The notes below the pieces were generated by a model. It was not told the DNA's origin, searched no databases, and saw only the letters and a list, made by a program, of their open reading frames with translations. Shown one piece after another: positions 29,794 through 40,568 of a DNA stretch of 64,000 nucleotides. Position numbers and translations under genes: made by a program. The stretch is from Poseidonocella pacifica. Lineage in GTDB: Bacteria > Pseudomonadota > Alphaproteobacteria > Rhodobacterales > Rhodobacteraceae. Each line of letters opens with the position of its first letter. The first letter of the stretch is position 1. The stretch lies in the NCBI RefSeq assembly GCF_900111875.1, contig NZ_FOJU01000002.1, positions 661,842-725,841 of the forward strand. The letters are read 5' to 3'.

Positions 29794-30285
29794 CTAGACA
29801 GCTTTGGAAATGCCCGCATCCCGAGGATAGGCCTCTGCCCCCTGGGCGGTGATCTTTGCCACCTCTTCGCGGGTCCGTGCGATACCCAGCGCAGCTTCGG
29901 CGGCCTCCCTGCCCTTCTGCACGAAATGCTCGGAGTAGATCCGGGTGTGATGCTCCGTTTCCTGAAAATGGTGCGGCGTGAGCGAAACCGAAAGCACCGG
30001 GACACCGCTTTCCAAACCAGCCTGCATGAGACCGGAAACAACGGCCTGTGCGACGAAATCGTGGCGATAGATACCGCCATCCACCACCAATGCGGCGGCG
30101 GCAACCGCCGCATAGCGCCCCGAAGATGCCAGATCGCGCGCGACGAGCGGCAATTCGAATGCGCCCGGCACGTCGAACACATCGACCGACGCGGGCGGGA
30201 TCACCTGCAAGAACCCGGCAAGCGCCTGATCCACGATCTCGGCGTGCCAGTTTGCCTTGACGAAGGCATAGCGAGGAAGGGTCAT
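29794..30285 (-). CDS. ribH: 6,7-dimethyl-8-ribityllumazine synthase (type II, RibH2-like)
   Basis: A 163-residue enzyme that joins ribityl-aminouracil and dihydroxybutanone phosphate to make lumazine, the penultimate step of riboflavin synthesis. The family pattern is seen in KANWHAEIVDQAL, DVFDVPGAFELPLVAR, VVDGGIYRHDFVA and VPVLSVSLTPHHFQE. The YRHDF in place of the usual TxHxD and the HHFQ end pattern suggest the type II group seen in Brucella RibH2. The ATG at 30285 is preceded by AGGAG. A complete FMN riboswitch lies upstream, so expression should fall when FMN is plentiful. Confidence 0.92.
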   Translation of the reverse strand: MTLPRYAFVKANWHAEIVDQALAGFLQVIPPASVDVFDVPGAFELPLVARDLASSGRYAAVAAAALVVDGGIYRHDFVAQAVVSGLMQAGLESGVPVLSVSLTPHHFQETEHHTRIYSEHFVQKGREAAEAALGIARTREEVAKITAQGAEAYPRDAGISKAV

Positions 30286-30337
30286 CTTGATCTCCTGAGC
30301 AACGACATTTCGGCCAAGGCGATCACACACAGATGCA

Positions 30338-30353
30338 CCACGGATCTCCGTGG
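30338..30353 (-). promoter_or_regulatory. Possible expression-platform hairpin between FMN aptamer and ribH
   Basis: A small hairpin with CCACGG-ATCT-CCGTGG pairing lies between the FMN aptamer (ending at 30363) and the ribH ribosome site. It is not followed by a T run, so it does not look like a simple terminator. It could take part in the switch between open and closed forms of the leader. Its role is inferred from position alone. Confidence 0.4.
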
Positions 30354-30362
30354 AGGCATATG

Positions 30363-30504
30363 CGCATTCTCTTTCATCCGGACTATGACCGTCGGCTCAG
30401 GCATCGCACCTGATCTGCTGACCCTTTCGCAACCGAAAGGCGCTCGCGGGCTCACGGGCAAGCCCGCATACCGCCGGTGGGGAATTTCGCCCCGCCCTGA
30501 GAAT
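30363..30504 (-). promoter_or_regulatory. FMN riboswitch (RFN element)
   Basis: Read on the minus strand this leader has the conserved RFN segments in order: an opening ATTCTCAGGGCGGGG, GAAATTCCCCACCGGCGGT, AGCCCGCGAGCGC, GGTCAGCAGATCAGGTGCGA, GAGCCGACGGTCATAGTCCGG and a closing ATGAAAGAGAAT that pairs with the start. The outer stem and five inner arms can all be drawn. It lies 78 bases upstream of the ribH ATG and is the only riboswitch seen in the window. Confidence 0.95.
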
Positions 30505-30552
30505 GGTGTTCAACTTGCTCATTCGGGCAAGAAAATCAAGCCACGCCCGACG

Positions 30553-32016
30553 TCACCTGTCTGATCGTGCTCGCTGTACCGCAGCTTTCCACGCCGCGCG
30601 CTGCCGGAGACGGTCAGATTCGCTCAGCGAGGGCATGAACCGGCGCATCTCCCCGGCTTCGGGGCGCGCAGGATGACCCAATAACCGCAACGCCATGGCC
30701 GCGACACCTCGCGCGCCCACTTCCGCCATATCGCGGCGGAGGACCGGACGCCCCAGAAGATCGACCTGAAGCTGCATCAGCCAGTCGTTCCCCGAGGCAC
30801 CTCCATCGGCCTTGAGCGTCTCCAACCGCTGTCCGATATCACGCTCCATCGCCTCAAAGACATCCGCCACCTGATGGGCGATGGCTTCGAACGTGGCACG
30901 GGCGAGATGGGCGGGACGCGTTGCCAGTGTCAGACCGCCAATGATGCCTCGTGCGTGATCGTCCCAATGCGGCGCGCCAAGACCAGCCAAGGCGGGTACA
31001 AAGAAGACGCCACCCGTGTCCGGAACCGATCGCGCAAGATCGGACAGCTCAGCAGGGCTCGGGATTCCCAGAAGATCCGCCGCAAACGCCGCCGCCTGTG
31101 CCGAAACGGTGATATTTCCCTCGATGGCATGGGCCGTTTCCCCGCCCTCGCTCCAGGCGATGGTTCCGGACAGCCCATGAGACGATGCCACGCGCTTGGG
31201 CGTCAGGCTCATCAGCGACGACCCCGTGCCGAAGGTTGCCTTCACCTCCCCCGGTGCGCGCACGTCGTGTCCATAAAGCGCAGCGTGGCTGTCGCCCATA
31301 AGACATAGGATCGGCACCCCTTCGGGCAGGGCCGTGGCACCTGCGGCCGTTACTCCGAACCGGGAAGCGCTGGGCAGGGCCTTTGGCAAAACATTCAGAG
31401 GGGCACCAAAGATCTGTGCCAGGTCTTTCGACCAGTTGAGCTTCGCCGTGTCGAAAAGCTGCGTCCGCGAGGCATTCGAATGATCCGTCGCGAAGGCCGT
31501 TCCGCCCGTCAGCTTCCACAACAACCACGAATCCACTGTTCCGGCTCGCAGCCGACTTGAATCATGCAGTTCGGCGACTTCGGGAATATTCCGGATCGCC
31601 CAGCCCAGTTTCGATGCTGGAAACAGCGGATTGATACCAAGCCCCGTCGCCGCCTGGACGGTGGGACCATGACCTCCTGCTATCAGTGCCTCGCAATCCT
31701 GCGCGGTGCGGCGACATTGCCACAGGATCGCAGGACAAGGAGCCGGGCCGCCTGTCGCATCCCACAGGACGAGCGTCTCACGCTGGTTCGAAATCGCGAG
31801 CCCCGCAATGCCGTCTGGCCCCGCCTTTTGCACGATCTCCGCGATGGCGCCGACCACACTGGTCCAAATTTCATCCGCGGATTGTTCGGCCCAACCATCG
31901 TGGGGGTAATCTGTCCGCGTCGGCCTGCTGGCGCGGGCAATGGGAGAGAGGTCCGCGTCGAAGAGCACAGCCTTGGTGTTGGTCGTGCCCTGATCGATCG
32001 CGAGGATACGTGTCAT
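30553..32016 (-). CDS. FGGY-family carbohydrate kinase
   Basis: A 487-residue sugar kinase. It begins with the ATPase phosphate-1 motif ILAIDQGTTNTKAVLFD, has the family pattern NQRETLVLWD and ILWQCRRT like glycerol kinase, and contains the second phosphate motif (ATFGTGSSLM) and the adenosine motif GGASGNDWLMQ. The sequence resembles glycerol kinase, but its place after a sugar isomerase and a split transketolase suggests a ketose substrate. It could be an apulose kinase by analogy with the D-apiose route; that is an inference. Its ATG overlaps the stop of the transketolase gene (ATGA). Confidence 0.88.
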   Translation of the reverse strand: MTRILAIDQGTTNTKAVLFDADLSPIARASRPTRTDYPHDGWAEQSADEIWTSVVGAIAEIVQKAGPDGIAGLAISNQRETLVLWDATGGPAPCPAILWQCRRTAQDCEALIAGGHGPTVQAATGLGINPLFPASKLGWAIRNIPEVAELHDSSRLRAGTVDSWLLWKLTGGTAFATDHSNASRTQLFDTAKLNWSKDLAQIFGAPLNVLPKALPSASRFGVTAAGATALPEGVPILCLMGDSHAALYGHDVRAPGEVKATFGTGSSLMSLTPKRVASSHGLSGTIAWSEGGETAHAIEGNITVSAQAAAFAADLLGIPSPAELSDLARSVPDTGGVFFVPALAGLGAPHWDDHARGIIGGLTLATRPAHLARATFEAIAHQVADVFEAMERDIGQRLETLKADGGASGNDWLMQLQVDLLGRPVLRRDMAEVGARGVAAMALRLLGHPARPEAGEMRRFMPSLSESDRLRQRAAWKAAVQRARSDR

Positions 32017-32966
32017 GCGGAAAGGGTCGCGCGAACCTGTGCTGCGATCCCTTCGGCGGTCAGGCCGGCATCTTCGAACAACCGCTCGGCCGACCCCGTG
32101 GTGCGAAAGCCGTCAAATCCCATGCGGGTCACCCGGCAAGGGTGGTGCGATGCGGTCCATTCCGCAACCGCGCCGCCAAGCCCGCCCCGGACATGCGCCT
32201 CCTCGACGGTGACAATCGCCCCAGTCGCGGCGGCTTTGGCAAGTGCGTCCTCATCGAGCGGGTTGATCGTTGCGACATTCAGAACCCGTACAGATACACC
32301 TTCGGCCTGAAGCAGCTCTGCCGCGTCCCGCGCCAGATGCACACAGGTCCCGCAGGCGAGTATCGCCGCATCCGACCCGTCGCGCACCACCTCGGCCCGT
32401 CCGGGACGGAAACTGCGGTTCGCAATCTCCAGATCCGGCACTTTCATGCGGGAAATGCGCAGATAAACGGGCCCGTCATGCTCAGCCGCCCAACGAACGG
32501 CCTCGGCGGTTTCCCAACTGTCAGCAGGAACGATCACGGTGATCTGTCCAAGTTGCCGCAACCACCCCAGATCCTCGATCGAGTGATGCGTAGCCCCAAG
32601 CTCCCCATAGGCGACACCTGAGGATTGACCGACCAGCTTCACGTTGTACCCCGAATAGGCGACATCGGCCTTGATCTGTTCCAGCGCACGCCCGGTGAGG
32701 AAACAGCCCGCCGCCGAAACGAAAGGAACCTTGCCGCCATTGGCCAGCCCCGCACCGACACCCACCATGAGCTGTTCGGCGATGCCCACATTGACCGTCC
32801 GATCGGGAAAGGCCTTGGCGAACCCGTCAAGCTTGGACGAGCCCAGCGAGTCGTTGACCACGGCGACGATGCGTTCATCCCGCCCGGCAAGATCCGTCAG
32901 CGTTTCGGACCATGCGACTCGGCAATCCTGCGCCTTGGCCGGGGCGGATATAACTGTTTCGGACAT
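32013..32966 (-). CDS. Transketolase C-terminal half (pyrimidine-binding and C domains)
   Basis: A 317-residue protein equal to the second half of transketolase. It holds the catalytic Glu for the thiamine aminopyrimidine (in NVGIAEQLMVGVGAGLA), the substrate-side His motif (GATHHSIEDLGWLRQL) and the C-terminal domain (VRVLNVATINPLDEDAL). It must pair with the 272-residue N-terminal half encoded just before it. Start and stop overlap its neighbours by one and four bases. Split transketolases are common in catabolic loci, including the D-apulose-4-phosphate enzymes AptA/AptB. Confidence 0.92.
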   Translation of the reverse strand: MSETVISAPAKAQDCRVAWSETLTDLAGRDERIVAVVNDSLGSSKLDGFAKAFPDRTVNVGIAEQLMVGVGAGLANGGKVPFVSAAGCFLTGRALEQIKADVAYSGYNVKLVGQSSGVAYGELGATHHSIEDLGWLRQLGQITVIVPADSWETAEAVRWAAEHDGPVYLRISRMKVPDLEIANRSFRPGRAEVVRDGSDAAILACGTCVHLARDAAELLQAEGVSVRVLNVATINPLDEDALAKAAATGAIVTVEEAHVRGGLGGAVAEWTASHHPCRVTRMGFDGFRTTGSAERLFEDAGLTAEGIAAQVRATLSA

Positions 32967-33783
32967 TAGACCAACTCCTCCATGGCTTGGGCCAGTTGGG
33001 CATCAGTGGGAACGCCGTGGTGCCATTTGGCTTGATTCTCCATGTACGACACACCTTTGCCCTTCACTGTATTGGCGATCACCGCGCGGGGCCTCCCCGA
33101 TGGTGCGGCGCCGAGCACTTCGAGCAATTGGGCGCAGTCATGGCCGTCGACCTCGAAAACTTCCCATCCGAAGGCCGCCCACTTTTCCGGAAGAGGGTCG
33201 AGCGAAGAGGTCTGTTCCGTACCTTGCCCCTGCTGCAGGCGGTTGCGGTCGATGATGACGGTCAGGTTTTCAAGTTTCCGATGGCCCGCCGTCATGGCCG
33301 CTTCCCAGTTCGACCCCTCTTGCATCTCCCCGTCCCCCGTCAGGACGAAGGTGCGGTACTCCGCTCCGTCGATCTGCCCCGCAATCGCGATCCCCACCGC
33401 AATGGGCAGCCCATGCCCCAGCGGGCCGGTATTGGCCTCCACCCCGGGAAGATATTGCCGGTTGGGGTGGCCATTCAGCTTTGATCCGGGTTGCATATAG
33501 GTATCCAGCCACTCTTCGGGGTAGTATCCCGCCCGGCACAACGCCGTATAAAGAACCCCGGTCGCATGACCCTTGGACATGACAAAGCGGTCACGGTCGG
33601 GTTTGCGTGGCAGGTCGGCATCATAGCGCAGCACACCGAAGAACAGCGTTGCCACGATATCCGTCGCCGAAAAGTCGCCACCGGGATGCCCAAGCTGCGC
33701 GGCATGCACCATCTGAAAGGCGCGGCGACGCATCCACAGAGCGTTATCGCGGATTGTCGCGACGGTGTTCGAGCGATCCATCA

Positions 33784-33784
<1 letters not shown>
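32966..33784 (-). CDS. Transketolase N-terminal half (thiamine-diphosphate phosphate-binding domain)
   Basis: A 272-residue protein equal to the first half of transketolase. Thiamine and Mg are bound by the motif LTGDGEMQEGSNWEAAM with the Asn at NLTVIIDRNRLQ. His motifs are GHPGGDFSATD and SKGHATGVLYTAL, and GPLGHGLPIAVG is a substrate-loop signature. The ATG at 33784 was chosen over the TTG at 33787 because GGAGG stands five bases before it. It shares one base with the isomerase stop. Together with the next gene it forms a complete two-subunit transketolase. Confidence 0.92.
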
Positions 33785-36427
<2,643 letters not shown>

Positions 36428-36442
36428 TCGCGCCAGAACGGC

Positions 36443-36467
36443 GGGGCGGCCCTATGGTCGTCGCCCC
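36443..36467 (+). terminator. Intercistronic hairpin after the substrate-binding-protein gene
   Basis: A GGGGCG / CGCCCC stem lies just after the binding-protein stop and before the DUF2291 gene. There is no T run, so it probably does not end all transcripts. Hairpins at this position often raise the level of the binding protein over the membrane components by stabilising the upstream mRNA; that role is inferred. Confidence 0.4.
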
Positions 36468-36502
36468 GACCTGTTCCTCCTTCGGCCCACGGGGACCCGC
36501 TC

Positions 36503-37129
36503 ATGATCCGCACCCTCGCCATCGCTGCCCTTGTGGCGCTGCCGCTCACTGCGTGCAAAATCGTCAAGAAGGCCGACGACGCCGACGCCGTCCCGCAGGA
36601 CGATGCGAGCCGTATGGCAGCGCTGGTCGAAGCAGATTGGGATGAGCGCATCCTCCCCGCCCTTTCGGATACAGCCAACCCGGCAGAAGACGTACTCGCA
36701 CTGGTCGGGTCGGATTTCGCCGCAGCAGAAGACCGATACGGCATCGGTGGTTCCGAAGGGGCCCCGAGCAACTTCGTGGTGACCGGAACCGGGACCGTCA
36801 TCGACGCCAATCTGGAAAGCCGCGCCGCGCGCCTCGATGTCGATATAGACGGCGATGGCGAAGCGGACTCTCAGATTCAGTTGGGCCCTGTCATACGCGG
36901 CACGGCGCTGCGCGACACACTGGATTTCTATGTGTTTACCGATTTCCGTGACCAGATCGAATTCGCGAAACTCGCCCGCGCGCTCAATGATGCCGCGCAT
37001 TCATCCCTTGAGCCCGCCCCAGCGCCGGTAGTCGGCCAAACCGTCACCTTCACCGGCGCATTCACCCTCGCCAAGGCGGGCGACCCCGCCCAGATCGTTC
37101 CCGTCCGTTTGTCTTGGGGGGCGGAATGA
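36503..37129 (+). CDS. DUF2291 lipoprotein of the sugar transporter operon
   Basis: A 208-residue protein with a lipoprotein signal: hydrophobic residues 4-15, then the lipobox LTAC with Cys18 as the lipidation site. The body includes GTGTVIDANLESRAARLDVDIDGDG and DFRDQIEFAKLARALND, the core of DUF2291. The family is found almost only inside ribose-type ABC operons, so it may act in sugar capture, though this is not established. Its stop overlaps the start of the ATPase gene. Confidence 0.88.
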   Translation: MIRTLAIAALVALPLTACKIVKKADDADAVPQDDASRMAALVEADWDERILPALSDTANPAEDVLALVGSDFAAAEDRYGIGGSEGAPSNFVVTGTGTVIDANLESRAARLDVDIDGDGEADSQIQLGPVIRGTALRDTLDFYVFTDFRDQIEFAKLARALNDAAHSSLEPAPAPVVGQTVTFTGAFTLAKAGDPAQIVPVRLSWGAE

Positions 37130-38643
37130 CCGACCACCCTATCGGCCTGTCCATCCGCGATGGTGTGAAGGTGTATCCGGGCACGCGCGCGCTCAAGAGT
37201 GTGGACTTTGACGTGCGCATGGGTGCCGTCAACGTCCTTGTCGGAGAGAACGGCGCAGGCAAATCAACACTTATGAAGGTCATTGCAGGTGTCGAAGGCC
37301 TGACCGAAGGACGCATCGAGATGGAGGGACAGGCGGTTTCCTTTTCCACCAAAATCGACGCAGAGCGCGCCGGAATTGGCATCGTCTTTCAGGAGTTGAA
37401 CCTCTTTCCCGACCTGTCGATCACCGAGAACATCTTCATCGGGCGCGAGCGCACCCATCTGGGCCATATCGACCGGGCCGAGCAACGCCGCATCGCACAG
37501 GAGCTTATGGCGCGTCTGGAGCAGGACATCGATGTCGATCAACCCCTCGGCAACCTTCGGATCGGGCAGCAGCAGATCGTGGAGATCGCGAAGGCCCTGA
37601 ACGAAAAGGCGCGCATCCTGATCCTGGATGAACCGACATCCGCATTGTCGCAAACCGAGGTAGACGTTCTTTTTCGCGTGGTGGGAGAGCTTCGCCGCCA
37701 AGGTGTCGGCATCGTCTATATCAGTCACCGGCTCGAGGAACTCATCCGCATCGGGGATTACATCACGGTCCTGCGCGACGGAGAGATTACGGGGGCGCAG
37801 CCAATGCAGGGCGTCGATATCCCGTGGATCGTACACGCAATGATCGGCGACGCGTCAAAAGACTTCCCACCCCGGGCCGATACGATCGGCGAAGAGGTTT
37901 TCCGCGCCGAAGCCGTAACCTTGCCCCGAGAGGCAGGGGGCCTTGCCGTCGATCACGTCAGCCTGTCGGTCAAGGCCGGAGAAATCGTGGGCATCTACGG
38001 CTTGATGGGCGCGGGCCGCAGCGAGTTTCTGGAATGCGTCCTCGGGTTGCACCCCCATGCGGGGGGCGAAATGTGGCTCGACGGGGTGCCCATTGGGCCG
38101 CCCGACGTCTCCAAGCGTATCGACCGAGGGGTCGCCCTGATCCCGGAGGACCGAAAACGCGACGGATTGGTACAGATCATGGCCATCCGCGAGAACATGA
38201 CGCTTTCTTCCTTGCGGCGGTTCACCCGCGGGGTCCACCTGAGCCTGAAGCGGGAGGCCGAAACCGTCCGCGATTTCGTTGCCCGGCTGGGAATAAAGAT
38301 CGCCAGTTCAGAACATCCGGTTTCCAGCCTCTCGGGCGGCAACCAACAAAAAGTCGTCATCTCCAAGGCGTTGATGACCTCGCCCCGCATCCTGCTGATG
38401 GATGAGCCTTCACGCGGGATCGACATTGGAGCAAAGGCCGAAGTGTTTCGCACCATGCGCAGCCTCGCCGAAGAGGGTCTTGCCATCCTGTTTGTCACCT
38501 CGGACCTCGAAGAGGTCACCGGTCTTTCTGATCGGATCATCGTCATGGCGCGGGGGAAGATTACCGGAAAATTCGACGGAACGACGGCCCGAATGGCCGA
38601 CATCGTCGAAGCCGCACAAGTCAAGAAGGACGTAGCCGCATGA
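37126..38643 (+). CDS. Sugar ABC transporter ATP-binding protein (RbsA-type, duplicated)
   Basis: A 505-residue ATPase made of two tandem nucleotide-binding domains. The first has Walker A GENGAGKST, signature LRIGQQQIVEIAKAL and Walker B ILILDEPTSALS. The second has a degenerate Walker A (GLMGAGRSEFL), signature LSGGNQQKVVISKAL and Walker B ILLMDEPSRGIDIG, as usual for RbsA/XylG proteins. The ATG at 37126 gives an ATGA overlap with the DUF2291 stop; an upstream ATG at 37114 adds only four residues. Confidence 0.94.
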   Translation: MTDHPIGLSIRDGVKVYPGTRALKSVDFDVRMGAVNVLVGENGAGKSTLMKVIAGVEGLTEGRIEMEGQAVSFSTKIDAERAGIGIVFQELNLFPDLSITENIFIGRERTHLGHIDRAEQRRIAQELMARLEQDIDVDQPLGNLRIGQQQIVEIAKALNEKARILILDEPTSALSQTEVDVLFRVVGELRRQGVGIVYISHRLEELIRIGDYITVLRDGEITGAQPMQGVDIPWIVHAMIGDASKDFPPRADTIGEEVFRAEAVTLPREAGGLAVDHVSLSVKAGEIVGIYGLMGAGRSEFLECVLGLHPHAGGEMWLDGVPIGPPDVSKRIDRGVALIPEDRKRDGLVQIMAIRENMTLSSLRRFTRGVHLSLKREAETVRDFVARLGIKIASSEHPVSSLSGGNQQKVVISKALMTSPRILLMDEPSRGIDIGAKAEVFRTMRSLAEEGLAILFVTSDLEEVTGLSDRIIVMARGKITGKFDGTTARMADIVEAAQVKKDVAA

Positions 38644-39698
38644 GTGCGATCGACACTGGCCCCAACGGGGCATCGGCCCAGAACCTGCTGCTTTTGCTAC
38701 TGAAAGCTCGCACCTTTATCGCGCTGATCGTGGTGTTCGTGTTCTTTGCCGCGGCGGCTCCGAACTTCCTGACCACGGCCAACATGATCATCATGGCCAA
38801 ACACGTCGCGCTCAACGCCTTTCTCGCCATCGGTATGACCTTCGTGATCATCACCGGCGGGATCGATCTTTCGGTGGGCTCCATCGTTGGGCTCTGCGGG
38901 ATGGTCGCGGGCTATCTGCTCTTGAACGGCGTCGATCTGGGGTATGCGTGGACGATACAGTTCAACACCTTCGAAATTGGCCTGATCACAATTCTGGTGG
39001 GGGTTCTCGTCGGAGTCGTCAACGGTGTCCTGATCACGAGGCTGAACGTCGCGCCCTTCATCGCCACTCTGGGAACGCTCTATGTCGCGCGCGGGCTGGC
39101 GCTTCTGTCCTCGTCCGGCTCGACCTTTCCGAACCTATCGGGCAACGCCGAGTGGGGTTCTGATACCTTTCGCTGGATCGGGGCGGGGAGCATCCTCGGG
39201 ATTCCGGTTTCCATCTGGATGCTGATCCTCGTCGCTTGCGGGGCTGCCTATGTGGCGCGCAACACGCCGCTTGGGCGGCACATCTATGCAGTTGGCGGAA
39301 ATGAGCGGGGCGCGTCGCTGTCGGGCGTAAAGGTCAAGCGCGTTAAGATGTACGTTTATATGTTCTCAGGCTTTTGTGCCGCTCTTGTGGGGTTGATCAT
39401 CGCCTCGCAGCTTCAGGCCGCGCATCCCGCGACAGGAGAGACCTTCGAGTTGAACGCGATTGCGGCGGCGGTGCTGGGCGGCACGTCCATGTCCGGGGGG
39501 CGCGGGCGCATCTTCGGAACGATCGTAGGTGCCTTCGTGATCGGCATCCTGTCGGACGGGTTGGTGATGATGGGGGTCTCTACCTTCTGGCAGACCGTCA
39601 TCAAGGGGCTGGTGATCATCGCCGCCGTTGTGGTCGATCAAGCGCAAAGCCGGTTCGAAGCTCGTGTGGTTCTTCGTCAACAAGCGGCGATGCGTTGA
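38640..39698 (+). CDS. Sugar ABC transporter permease (RbsC-type)
   Basis: A 352-residue polytopic permease of the ribose/xylose group. The pattern ITGGIDLSVGSIVGLCGMVAG, then NGVLITRLNVAPFIATLGTLYVARGLALL, and near the end NAIAAAVLGGTSMSGGRGRIFGTIVGA is the family signature, the last part contacting the ATPase. About nine to ten membrane segments can be counted. The start overlaps the ATPase stop (ATGA). It completes the transporter. Confidence 0.93.
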   Translation: MSAIDTGPNGASAQNLLLLLLKARTFIALIVVFVFFAAAAPNFLTTANMIIMAKHVALNAFLAIGMTFVIITGGIDLSVGSIVGLCGMVAGYLLLNGVDLGYAWTIQFNTFEIGLITILVGVLVGVVNGVLITRLNVAPFIATLGTLYVARGLALLSSSGSTFPNLSGNAEWGSDTFRWIGAGSILGIPVSIWMLILVACGAAYVARNTPLGRHIYAVGGNERGASLSGVKVKRVKMYVYMFSGFCAALVGLIIASQLQAAHPATGETFELNAIAAAVLGGTSMSGGRGRIFGTIVGAFVIGILSDGLVMMGVSTFWQTVIKGLVIIAAVVVDQAQSRFEARVVLRQQAAMR

Positions 39699-39761
39699 TC
39701 CCCGGCCACTTTTGCTACAGATGGTCCAGACAAACAGGCGAAGAAGTCGCGAAAGGGCGCA

Positions 39762-40568
39762 ATGACAAAGGCCGGACCAACACGGGCAAAGACACGCGGC
39801 GGATTGCTGTCGGAAACCCGCCGACGCCGCATCCTCGATTGGCTGGAGGAGGAAGGATCGGCCCGCGTCCGCGATCTGGCGGAGGCCTTTACCGTTTCGG
39901 ACGTGACGATCAGGCAGGATCTCGAACGTCTGGAGGCCGAGGGCCATATCACCCGCGAATATGGCGGGGCCTATCTCAACAACGTGGCAAGTCAGGTCGC
40001 ATCGCTCTCGCTTCAGCACAGCGAAAACATGGACAAGAAGCGCCGCATTGGCGCATTGGCGGCCTCGCTCGTCTCTGATGGCGAAACGCTCATCCTTGAT
40101 GCAGGCTCCACCACCACAGAGATCGCCACGCGCCTGACTGACAAGCGTGATCTGACCGTCATCACCAATGCGCTCAATATCGCCATCATTCTCGGCGCAG
40201 TCCCGAGCGTCGCAGTACATCTGCCGGGCGGACAGTTCAAACCGCCAACCCTGTCCGTCTCCGGCGACAAGGCGGTGGAGTACCTGTCCGATGTCTTTGC
40301 CGGCAAGCTGTTCCTCGCCACGGCGGGTGTCTCTATCGATACCGGGCTAACCTATCCGAGTTTCGCGGATTTGCAGTTGAAGCAGGCGATGATCGCGGCC
40401 GCTAACAAAACGATCCTTGTCGCCGATTCGACCAAGATCAACCTGTCGTCCTTTACGCGCCTCAACACTCTCGAGGTTGTGGACACGTTCATCACCGACG
40501 ACGGCATAAAGGATCGCGACGCGCAAGCCTTCGAAGCACTCGGCATCGAGGTCATGATCGCCGTCTAG
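39762..40568 (+). CDS. DeoR/GlpR-family transcriptional regulator
   Basis: A 268-residue regulator. The N-terminal winged helix-turn-helix is at about 24-78 (RRRRILDWLEEEGSARVRDLAEAFTVSDVTIRQDLERLE in outline). The C-terminal part is a sugar-phosphate sensor domain with LILDAGSTTTEIATRL and VLVADSTKINLSSF. It is the last gene of the transporter operon and probably controls both divergent sugar operons through the CTTTCG repeats. The effector is likely a phosphorylated intermediate of the pathway (inference). Confidence 0.9.
   Translation: MTKAGPTRAKTRGGLLSETRRRRILDWLEEEGSARVRDLAEAFTVSDVTIRQDLERLEAEGHITREYGGAYLNNVASQVASLSLQHSENMDKKRRIGALAASLVSDGETLILDAGSTTTEIATRLTDKRDLTVITNALNIAIILGAVPSVAVHLPGGQFKPPTLSVSGDKAVEYLSDVFAGKLFLATAGVSIDTGLTYPSFADLQLKQAMIAAANKTILVADSTKINLSSFTRLNTLEVVDTFITDDGIKDRDAQAFEALGIEVMIAV

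Follow-up and report, generated by a model that had tools for sequence, protein, structure and literature searches.

A probable D-apiose operon of Poseidonocella pacifica carries a candidate isomerase of predicted AraA/FucI fold in place of ApsI

Apiose is a branched plant cell-wall sugar that occurs in rhamnogalacturonan II and in many plant glycosides. The chemistry of its transketolase pathway reportedly goes back to the work of Carter in 2018. A D-apiose transketolase cluster is described in PMC13001218, where two short-chain dehydrogenase/reductase (SDR) oxidoreductases of Escherichia are proposed as a stand-in for the isomerase ApsI. Here, we analyze a 64-kb stretch of DNA from the alphaproteobacterium Poseidonocella pacifica (the window; contig NZ_FOJU01000002.1, positions 661,842 to 725,841), whose genome (G000) comprises 3.62 Mb in 11 contigs. 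It contains a divergent sugar locus that very probably serves the uptake of D-apiose and its breakdown by the transketolase pathway, with an isomerase of predicted AraA/FucI fold, unrelated to ApsI, that likely converts D-apiose to D-apulose.

An earlier note on this DNA had described the layout, which coordinates and Pfam confirm. The minus strand carries a four-gene operon in the order isomerase, transketolase N-terminal half, transketolase C-terminal half and FGGY kinase; successive genes overlap by 4, 1 and 4 bases. The divergent plus-strand set encodes the binding protein, DUF2291 lipoprotein, ATPase and permease of a ribose-type ABC transporter, and a DeoR regulator. The features are as follows.

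33784-35271, minus strand: candidate D-apiose isomerase replacing ApsI (isomerase-family protein, PF02952; FucI/AraA fold predicted); real start probably 35250
32966-33787, minus strand: transketolase N-terminal half, AptA-like (PF00456 and trees)
32013-32966, minus strand: transketolase C-terminal half, AptB-like (PF02779, PF02780 and trees)
30553-32016, minus strand: GlpK-like FGGY kinase, predicted D-apulose kinase, AplK/ApsK-like (FGGY_N/C and tree)
35489-36427, plus strand: ABC sugar-binding protein (Peripla_BP_4; ~79% identity to R. etli RHE_PF00037, PDB 5ibq/4ry0)
36503-37129, plus strand: DUF2291 lipoprotein, encoded with the transporter (Pfam DUF2291)
37114-38643, plus strand: sugar ABC transporter ATPase, CUT2 type (Pfam ABC_tran)
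38640-39698, plus strand: sugar ABC transporter permease (Pfam BPD_transp_2)
39762-40568, plus strand: DeoR-family regulator (Pfam DeoRC; the closest NCBIfam model is AgaR, whose cut-off of 260 bits it misses with 211.7)
35251-35488, no strand: divergent promoter region, predicted DeoR operator (five WCGAAAG words)

The sequences themselves show the gene order, the protein families (with the isomerase in another family than ApsI), a transporter, kinase and transketolase that cluster with their D-apiose counterparts, and mutual exclusion with ApsI in the genomes sampled; every catalytic step, and the ligand, we infer. The ABC transporter would import D-apiose. Like AraA and FucI, the isomerase presumably depends on a metal; its product would be the ketose D-apulose, which the GlpK-like FGGY kinase would phosphorylate to D-apulose 4-phosphate. 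The split transketolase would move a two-carbon unit of this compound to glyceraldehyde 3-phosphate, giving dihydroxyacetone phosphate and xylulose 5-phosphate. DeoR likely acts on the promoter region that the two operons share and would repress both.

The earlier note had proposed a non-homologous isomerase in place of ApsI, and family membership supports this. ApsI as known is a TIM barrel of family PF01261, and the window isomerase belongs to another family, PF02952. This also rules out a suspicion raised by loci of Rahnella, Sodalis and a Klebsiella plasmid, namely that ApsI itself is FucI-type. In Pfam, PF02952 covers the C-terminal part of the window isomerase only; its predicted model shows an AraA/FucI fold over the whole length. 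This shared fold and domain would fit an ordinary L-arabinose or L-fucose isomerase operon, but structural alignments with AraA and FucI give 11-15% identity, at E <= 0.001 there is neither an AraA or FucI NCBIfam match nor a match to a PDB sequence, and the operon genes include no aldolase or epimerase. We therefore rejected this explanation as extremely improbable. A profile search of PDB sequences returned two chance-like matches only (E 0.77-0.83), and no alignment reached significance when the isomerase profile was compared with individual AraA and FucI sequences. The sole NCBIfam match is the sulfoquinovose isomerase SftI (NF048012), a function rejected on a score far under the cut-off (93.2 versus 700 bits). 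E314, D338, H354, H453 and H454 are invariant across 29 aligned isomerase rows. With the metal ligands of AraA and FucI at the positions where we take them to be, the two AraA histidines map onto H354 and H454 in all three alignments, and all three FucI ligands map together onto E314, D338 and H454 in one of the three. Relatives listed with a source name nearly always bear some form of "L-fucose/L-arabinose isomerase" or "fucose isomerase", with one "hypothetical protein"; apiose is absent from the names among 240 relatives listed, as far as these are shown.

How the isomerase is distributed was assessed in 295 Enterobacteriaceae genomes, sampled the same way each time, with three probes at E <= 1e-100: E. 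coli AptA, a Rahnella isomerase of the window's family (hereafter FucI-type) and ApsI. AptA had matches in 55 genomes, the FucI-type isomerase in 32 and ApsI in 9. The AptA genomes include all nine with ApsI and 31 of the 32 with the FucI-type enzyme, the exception (G321) being 49% complete; they divide into 31 with the FucI-type isomerase, 9 with ApsI and 15 with neither. The two isomerases share no genome, against 5.1 overlaps expected by chance; because genomes of one genus are not independent, the co-occurrence p-values are too strong and indicative only. Among 56 AptA places, 40 were inspected, and the entry enzyme in the stretch is FucI-type in 18, ApsI in 3, both SDRs in 14 and one SDR in 1, with none in 4. 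The four AptA genomes without an entry enzyme in the stretch (G178, G378, G528, G575) have a FucI-type isomerase (one genome) or ApsI (three) elsewhere. All 12 inspected of the 15 genomes with neither isomerase carry both SDRs (G372, G487 and G530 are outside this count). To judge from these genomes, the swap of isomerase is widespread, not local, and the FucI-type enzyme is commoner than ApsI in the enterobacterial sample. In three hybrid loci (L037, L058, L066), a single kinase and transketolase pair is accompanied by a FucI-type isomerase as well as one or both SDRs, which looks like two entry routes converging on one pathway.

The phylogenetic comparison suggested by the earlier note was carried out for the partner genes, with a transketolase tree of 48 loci chosen for spread plus the window and TktA, and a kinase tree of 41 cluster kinases (40 loci chosen for spread plus the window) and three E. 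coli outgroups (GlpK, XylB, AraB). Both the transketolase halves and the kinase cluster with their counterparts from D-apiose (Apt/AplK) loci rather than with the family of another known substrate. Once TktA and two long rows are removed, 42 Apt-cluster rows including the window form one side of a branch, opposite five other split transketolases (support 100/100). Sister clusters can carry either isomerase. L144, with a FucI-type enzyme, is sister to L158, with ApsI (support 99/94 for transketolase and 100/96 for kinase), and the alphaproteobacterial ApsI cluster L161 falls in the window's kinase group (support 100/98), its transketolase N-terminal half being 66% and its DeoR 60% identical to the window's.

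The binding protein points to the ligand. Over its mature part it is ~79% identical to Rhizobium etli RHE_PF00037, whose gene cluster includes the apionate-pathway gene oiaX along with genes for a four-carbon acid sugar kinase, a Gfo/Idh/MocA dehydrogenase and DhaK/DhaL. Near-orthologous binding proteins adjoin oiaX in Salipiger and Paracoccus, and in Roseibium a gene annotated as RuBisCO large subunit family. As the putative pocket we used the 12 positions that match the ligand contacts of E. coli ribose-binding protein, presumably placed as we have them. These are identical in the window protein, in three of three ApsI-cluster proteins, in 20 of 20 gammaproteobacterial (19 distinct) and in 46 of 48 alphaproteobacterial proteins from FucI-type loci. 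Binding proteins of oxidative loci have the same pocket in three of four cases, and one site differs in the fourth. In SDR-type gammaproteobacterial loci, 16 of 17 binding proteins, including that of E. coli SE15, share another pattern, and L160 has the common one. The difference of these Escherichia-type proteins lies in NYYNNRHRGNDL versus NFFNDRSRWNDQ (L088, 17009-17944; L120-L133; L172). The binding proteins of SDR clusters may thus bind another ligand, for example the polyol apiitol, either in addition to D-apiose or in place of it. Next to SDR1, alphaproteobacterial SDR-type clusters have a second CUT2 transporter with a binding protein ~30% identical (L058, L076, L163-L165, L167, L195, L198-L203, L205), a candidate importer of a polyol or a derivative.

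D-apiose is what we take to be the ligand of 5ibq. The available part of PMC8112048 mentions 5IBQ without apiose. PDB 4ry0 is titled as a ribose transporter protein, the transporter and binding protein match ribose-like family models, and relatives with the PF02952 fold include arabinose and fucose isomerases, all of which would suit an operon for another aldopentose (e.g. D-ribose, D- or L-arabinose, or L-ribose), with ribose-type import and a transketolase that uses the resulting ketose phosphate. Against this stand orthologues of the binding protein in loci with apionate-pathway genes, a pocket the same as in ApsI-cluster proteins, and an isomerase that interchanges with ApsI among close relatives of the kinase and transketolase, so that another aldopentose appears unlikely. 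The earlier note had left the choice between D-apiose and another pentose undecided. Orthology to oiaX loci, the identical putative pocket, the ApsI interchange and the apionate-pathway relatives in two loci (L028, L074) now favor D-apiose. In both loci, the same stretch encodes proteins related to OiaX and to the product of the ApnL-labelled R. etli gene, at 38-43% identity. ApsD and ApnL are what we presume two R. etli genes to be; their records say Gfo/Idh/MocA oxidoreductase and hypothetical protein.

Of 207 loci with the window's isomerase, the best 80 served for the alphaproteobacterial counts; 74 of these 80 span at least 8 kb. The transketolase pair and kinase are present in 60 of the 74; 46 encode a binding protein that shares at least 70% identity with that of the window or of R. 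etli, and 43 have both. Judged by sequence, this gene arrangement is not a product of chance.

Besides the title of 4ry0 and the interdependence of genomes within a genus, several observations weigh against the D-apiose reading. The metal-ligand mapping is only partly consistent between aligners. With TktA kept (branch length 10), the alpha- and gammaproteobacterial Apt transketolases are not one clade; nor are the kinases with respect to GlpK, XylB and AraB, and the approximately unbiased test neither rejects nor shows such a clade (p-AU 0.075). In two alphaproteobacterial FucI-type loci (L036, L043), the binding protein has a different pocket and 52-54% identity to that of R. etli, and SDR clusters coexist with the FucI-type isomerase or ApsI in some genomes (G559, G396; one SDR in G387). 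Finally, 14 of the 74 alphaproteobacterial loci lack the transketolase and kinase in the stretch, some being cut by contig ends; in 12 of these 14 genomes that were checked, an Apt-type transketolase lies elsewhere in 10 and is missing from 2. One or both SDRs are part of that other cluster in 7 of the 10. These 14 loci, and the SDRs in the 7 genomes, would fit a D-apiose operon whose isomerase handles a side substrate, while an unlinked enzyme opens D-apiose. We consider this very unlikely, given that the isomerase is the first operon gene in the window, with a 4-base overlap, that the genome of P. pacifica itself lacks a close relative of ApsI (a search that did not extend to SDRs) and that FucI-type isomerase and ApsI are mutually exclusive in the Enterobacteriaceae sample. 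The best ApsI relative in the own genome is only 26% identical over part of its length. The same genome has no match to OiaX or to the R. etli ApnL-labelled protein, an empty answer that alone shows nothing.

The direct conversion of D-apiose to D-apulose by the isomerase stays the preferred reading. The module of isomerase, transketolase and kinase extends beyond the two classes of Proteobacteria. Among 289 genomes of the window's class, its own included, the isomerase is found in 3 (E <= 1e-60), the Apt-type transketolase in 5 (E <= 1e-78) and both in 2. In G620 (1.4 Mb), the third genome with the isomerase, a more remote split transketolase (47 and 39%) and an FGGY kinase (31%) lie beside that gene. 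At L194, in a 1.4-Mb alphaproteobacterial genome with 36% GC in the stretch, a diverged isomerase, transketolase and kinase set stands beside its own transporter. In Monoglobus pectinilyticus (Bacillota; L208), genes for the transketolase N- and C-terminal halves and a GlpK-like kinase come after that of an isomerase with 26-27% identity to the window's; this module adjoins DUF5060, SGNH/GDSL hydrolase and immunoglobulin-like proteins. A distant isomerase relative in Chlorohelix has no transketolase or kinase partners in the stretch seen, so the isomerase family as a whole has other roles.

Taken together, these findings make it reasonably likely that the AraA/FucI-fold enzyme is a D-apiose isomerase that has gone unrecognized and that provides the most frequent entry to the transketolase branch. 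With the ApsI TIM barrel and the proposed Escherichia SDR redox pair, there would be three unrelated solutions to one aldose-to-ketose step, in a module that spans alpha- and gammaproteobacteria to pectin-degrading Monoglobus. If so, relatives named fucose or arabinose isomerase would become D-apiose isomerases, and the pathway could be read in genomes that seem to lack ApsI (31 of 55 AptA genomes are FucI-type, versus 9 with ApsI). It would also be a clean case in which operons that are otherwise orthologous have exchanged one enzyme for an unrelated one, sister clusters carrying one or the other. Our literature search, which did not extend to the full text of Carter 2018, returned no paper joining apiose to fucose isomerase or arabinose isomerase, and none combining apiose, solute binding protein and isomerase. 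Caution about novelty is needed, as another ApsI replacement, the SDR pair, is already proposed in print (PMC13001218).

Isomerase translation probably starts at 35250, because most of 120 homologues listed have 488 amino acids, not 495, and a GGAGG stands upstream of Met8; the binding-protein start was taken at the ATG at 35489. In the divergent region between these starts lie 5 of the 18 WCGAAAG occurrences of the whole window, as two pairs 10 bp apart and one single word, and related words head the 8-mer list from 39 such divergent regions. As a predicted DeoR operator these words are a lead only, because the word was picked from the same regions. Directly downstream of the kinase, the stretch 29794-30508 has a flavin mononucleotide (FMN) riboswitch on the minus strand, upstream of a gene that we take to be lumazine-synthase-like. 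Relatives of that gene lie near the same sugar cluster in L002, L014 (of Paracoccus aestuariivivens), L015, L038 and L065.

Among known systems, AraA and FucI (11-15% identical to the window isomerase) have other operon partners, and SftI (NF048012), its only NCBIfam match, lies far below the cut-off. The closest system is D-apiose degradation I (MetaCyc PWY-8089; ApsI, AplK/ApsK, AptA/AptB), which is alike in the split transketolase and GlpK-like FGGY kinase, and in the CUT2 transporter with DUF2291 and the putative binding-protein pocket. It differs in its first enzyme, the PF01261 TIM barrel ApsI, where the window has a PF02952 protein of predicted AraA/FucI fold. The regulator differs as well, being DeoR in the window and a "sugar-binding transcriptional regulator", presumably of SorC type, in gammaproteobacterial D-apiose clusters. 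The Escherichia D-apiose cluster, as in E. coli SE15, resembles the window in AptA/AptB, the FGGY kinase and the transporter with DUF2291, and it too is without ApsI; growth on D-apiose is reported for other Escherichia strains carrying the cluster (PMC13001218). In SE15, its binding protein shares 45% identity with that of the window and has a different putative pocket. With the oxidative D-apiose/D-apionate pathway of R. etli p42f, the window shares a near-orthologous transporter and binding protein; p42f combines these with a Gfo/Idh/MocA dehydrogenase, OiaX and other enzymes, whereas the window combines them with an isomerase, an FGGY kinase and a transketolase.

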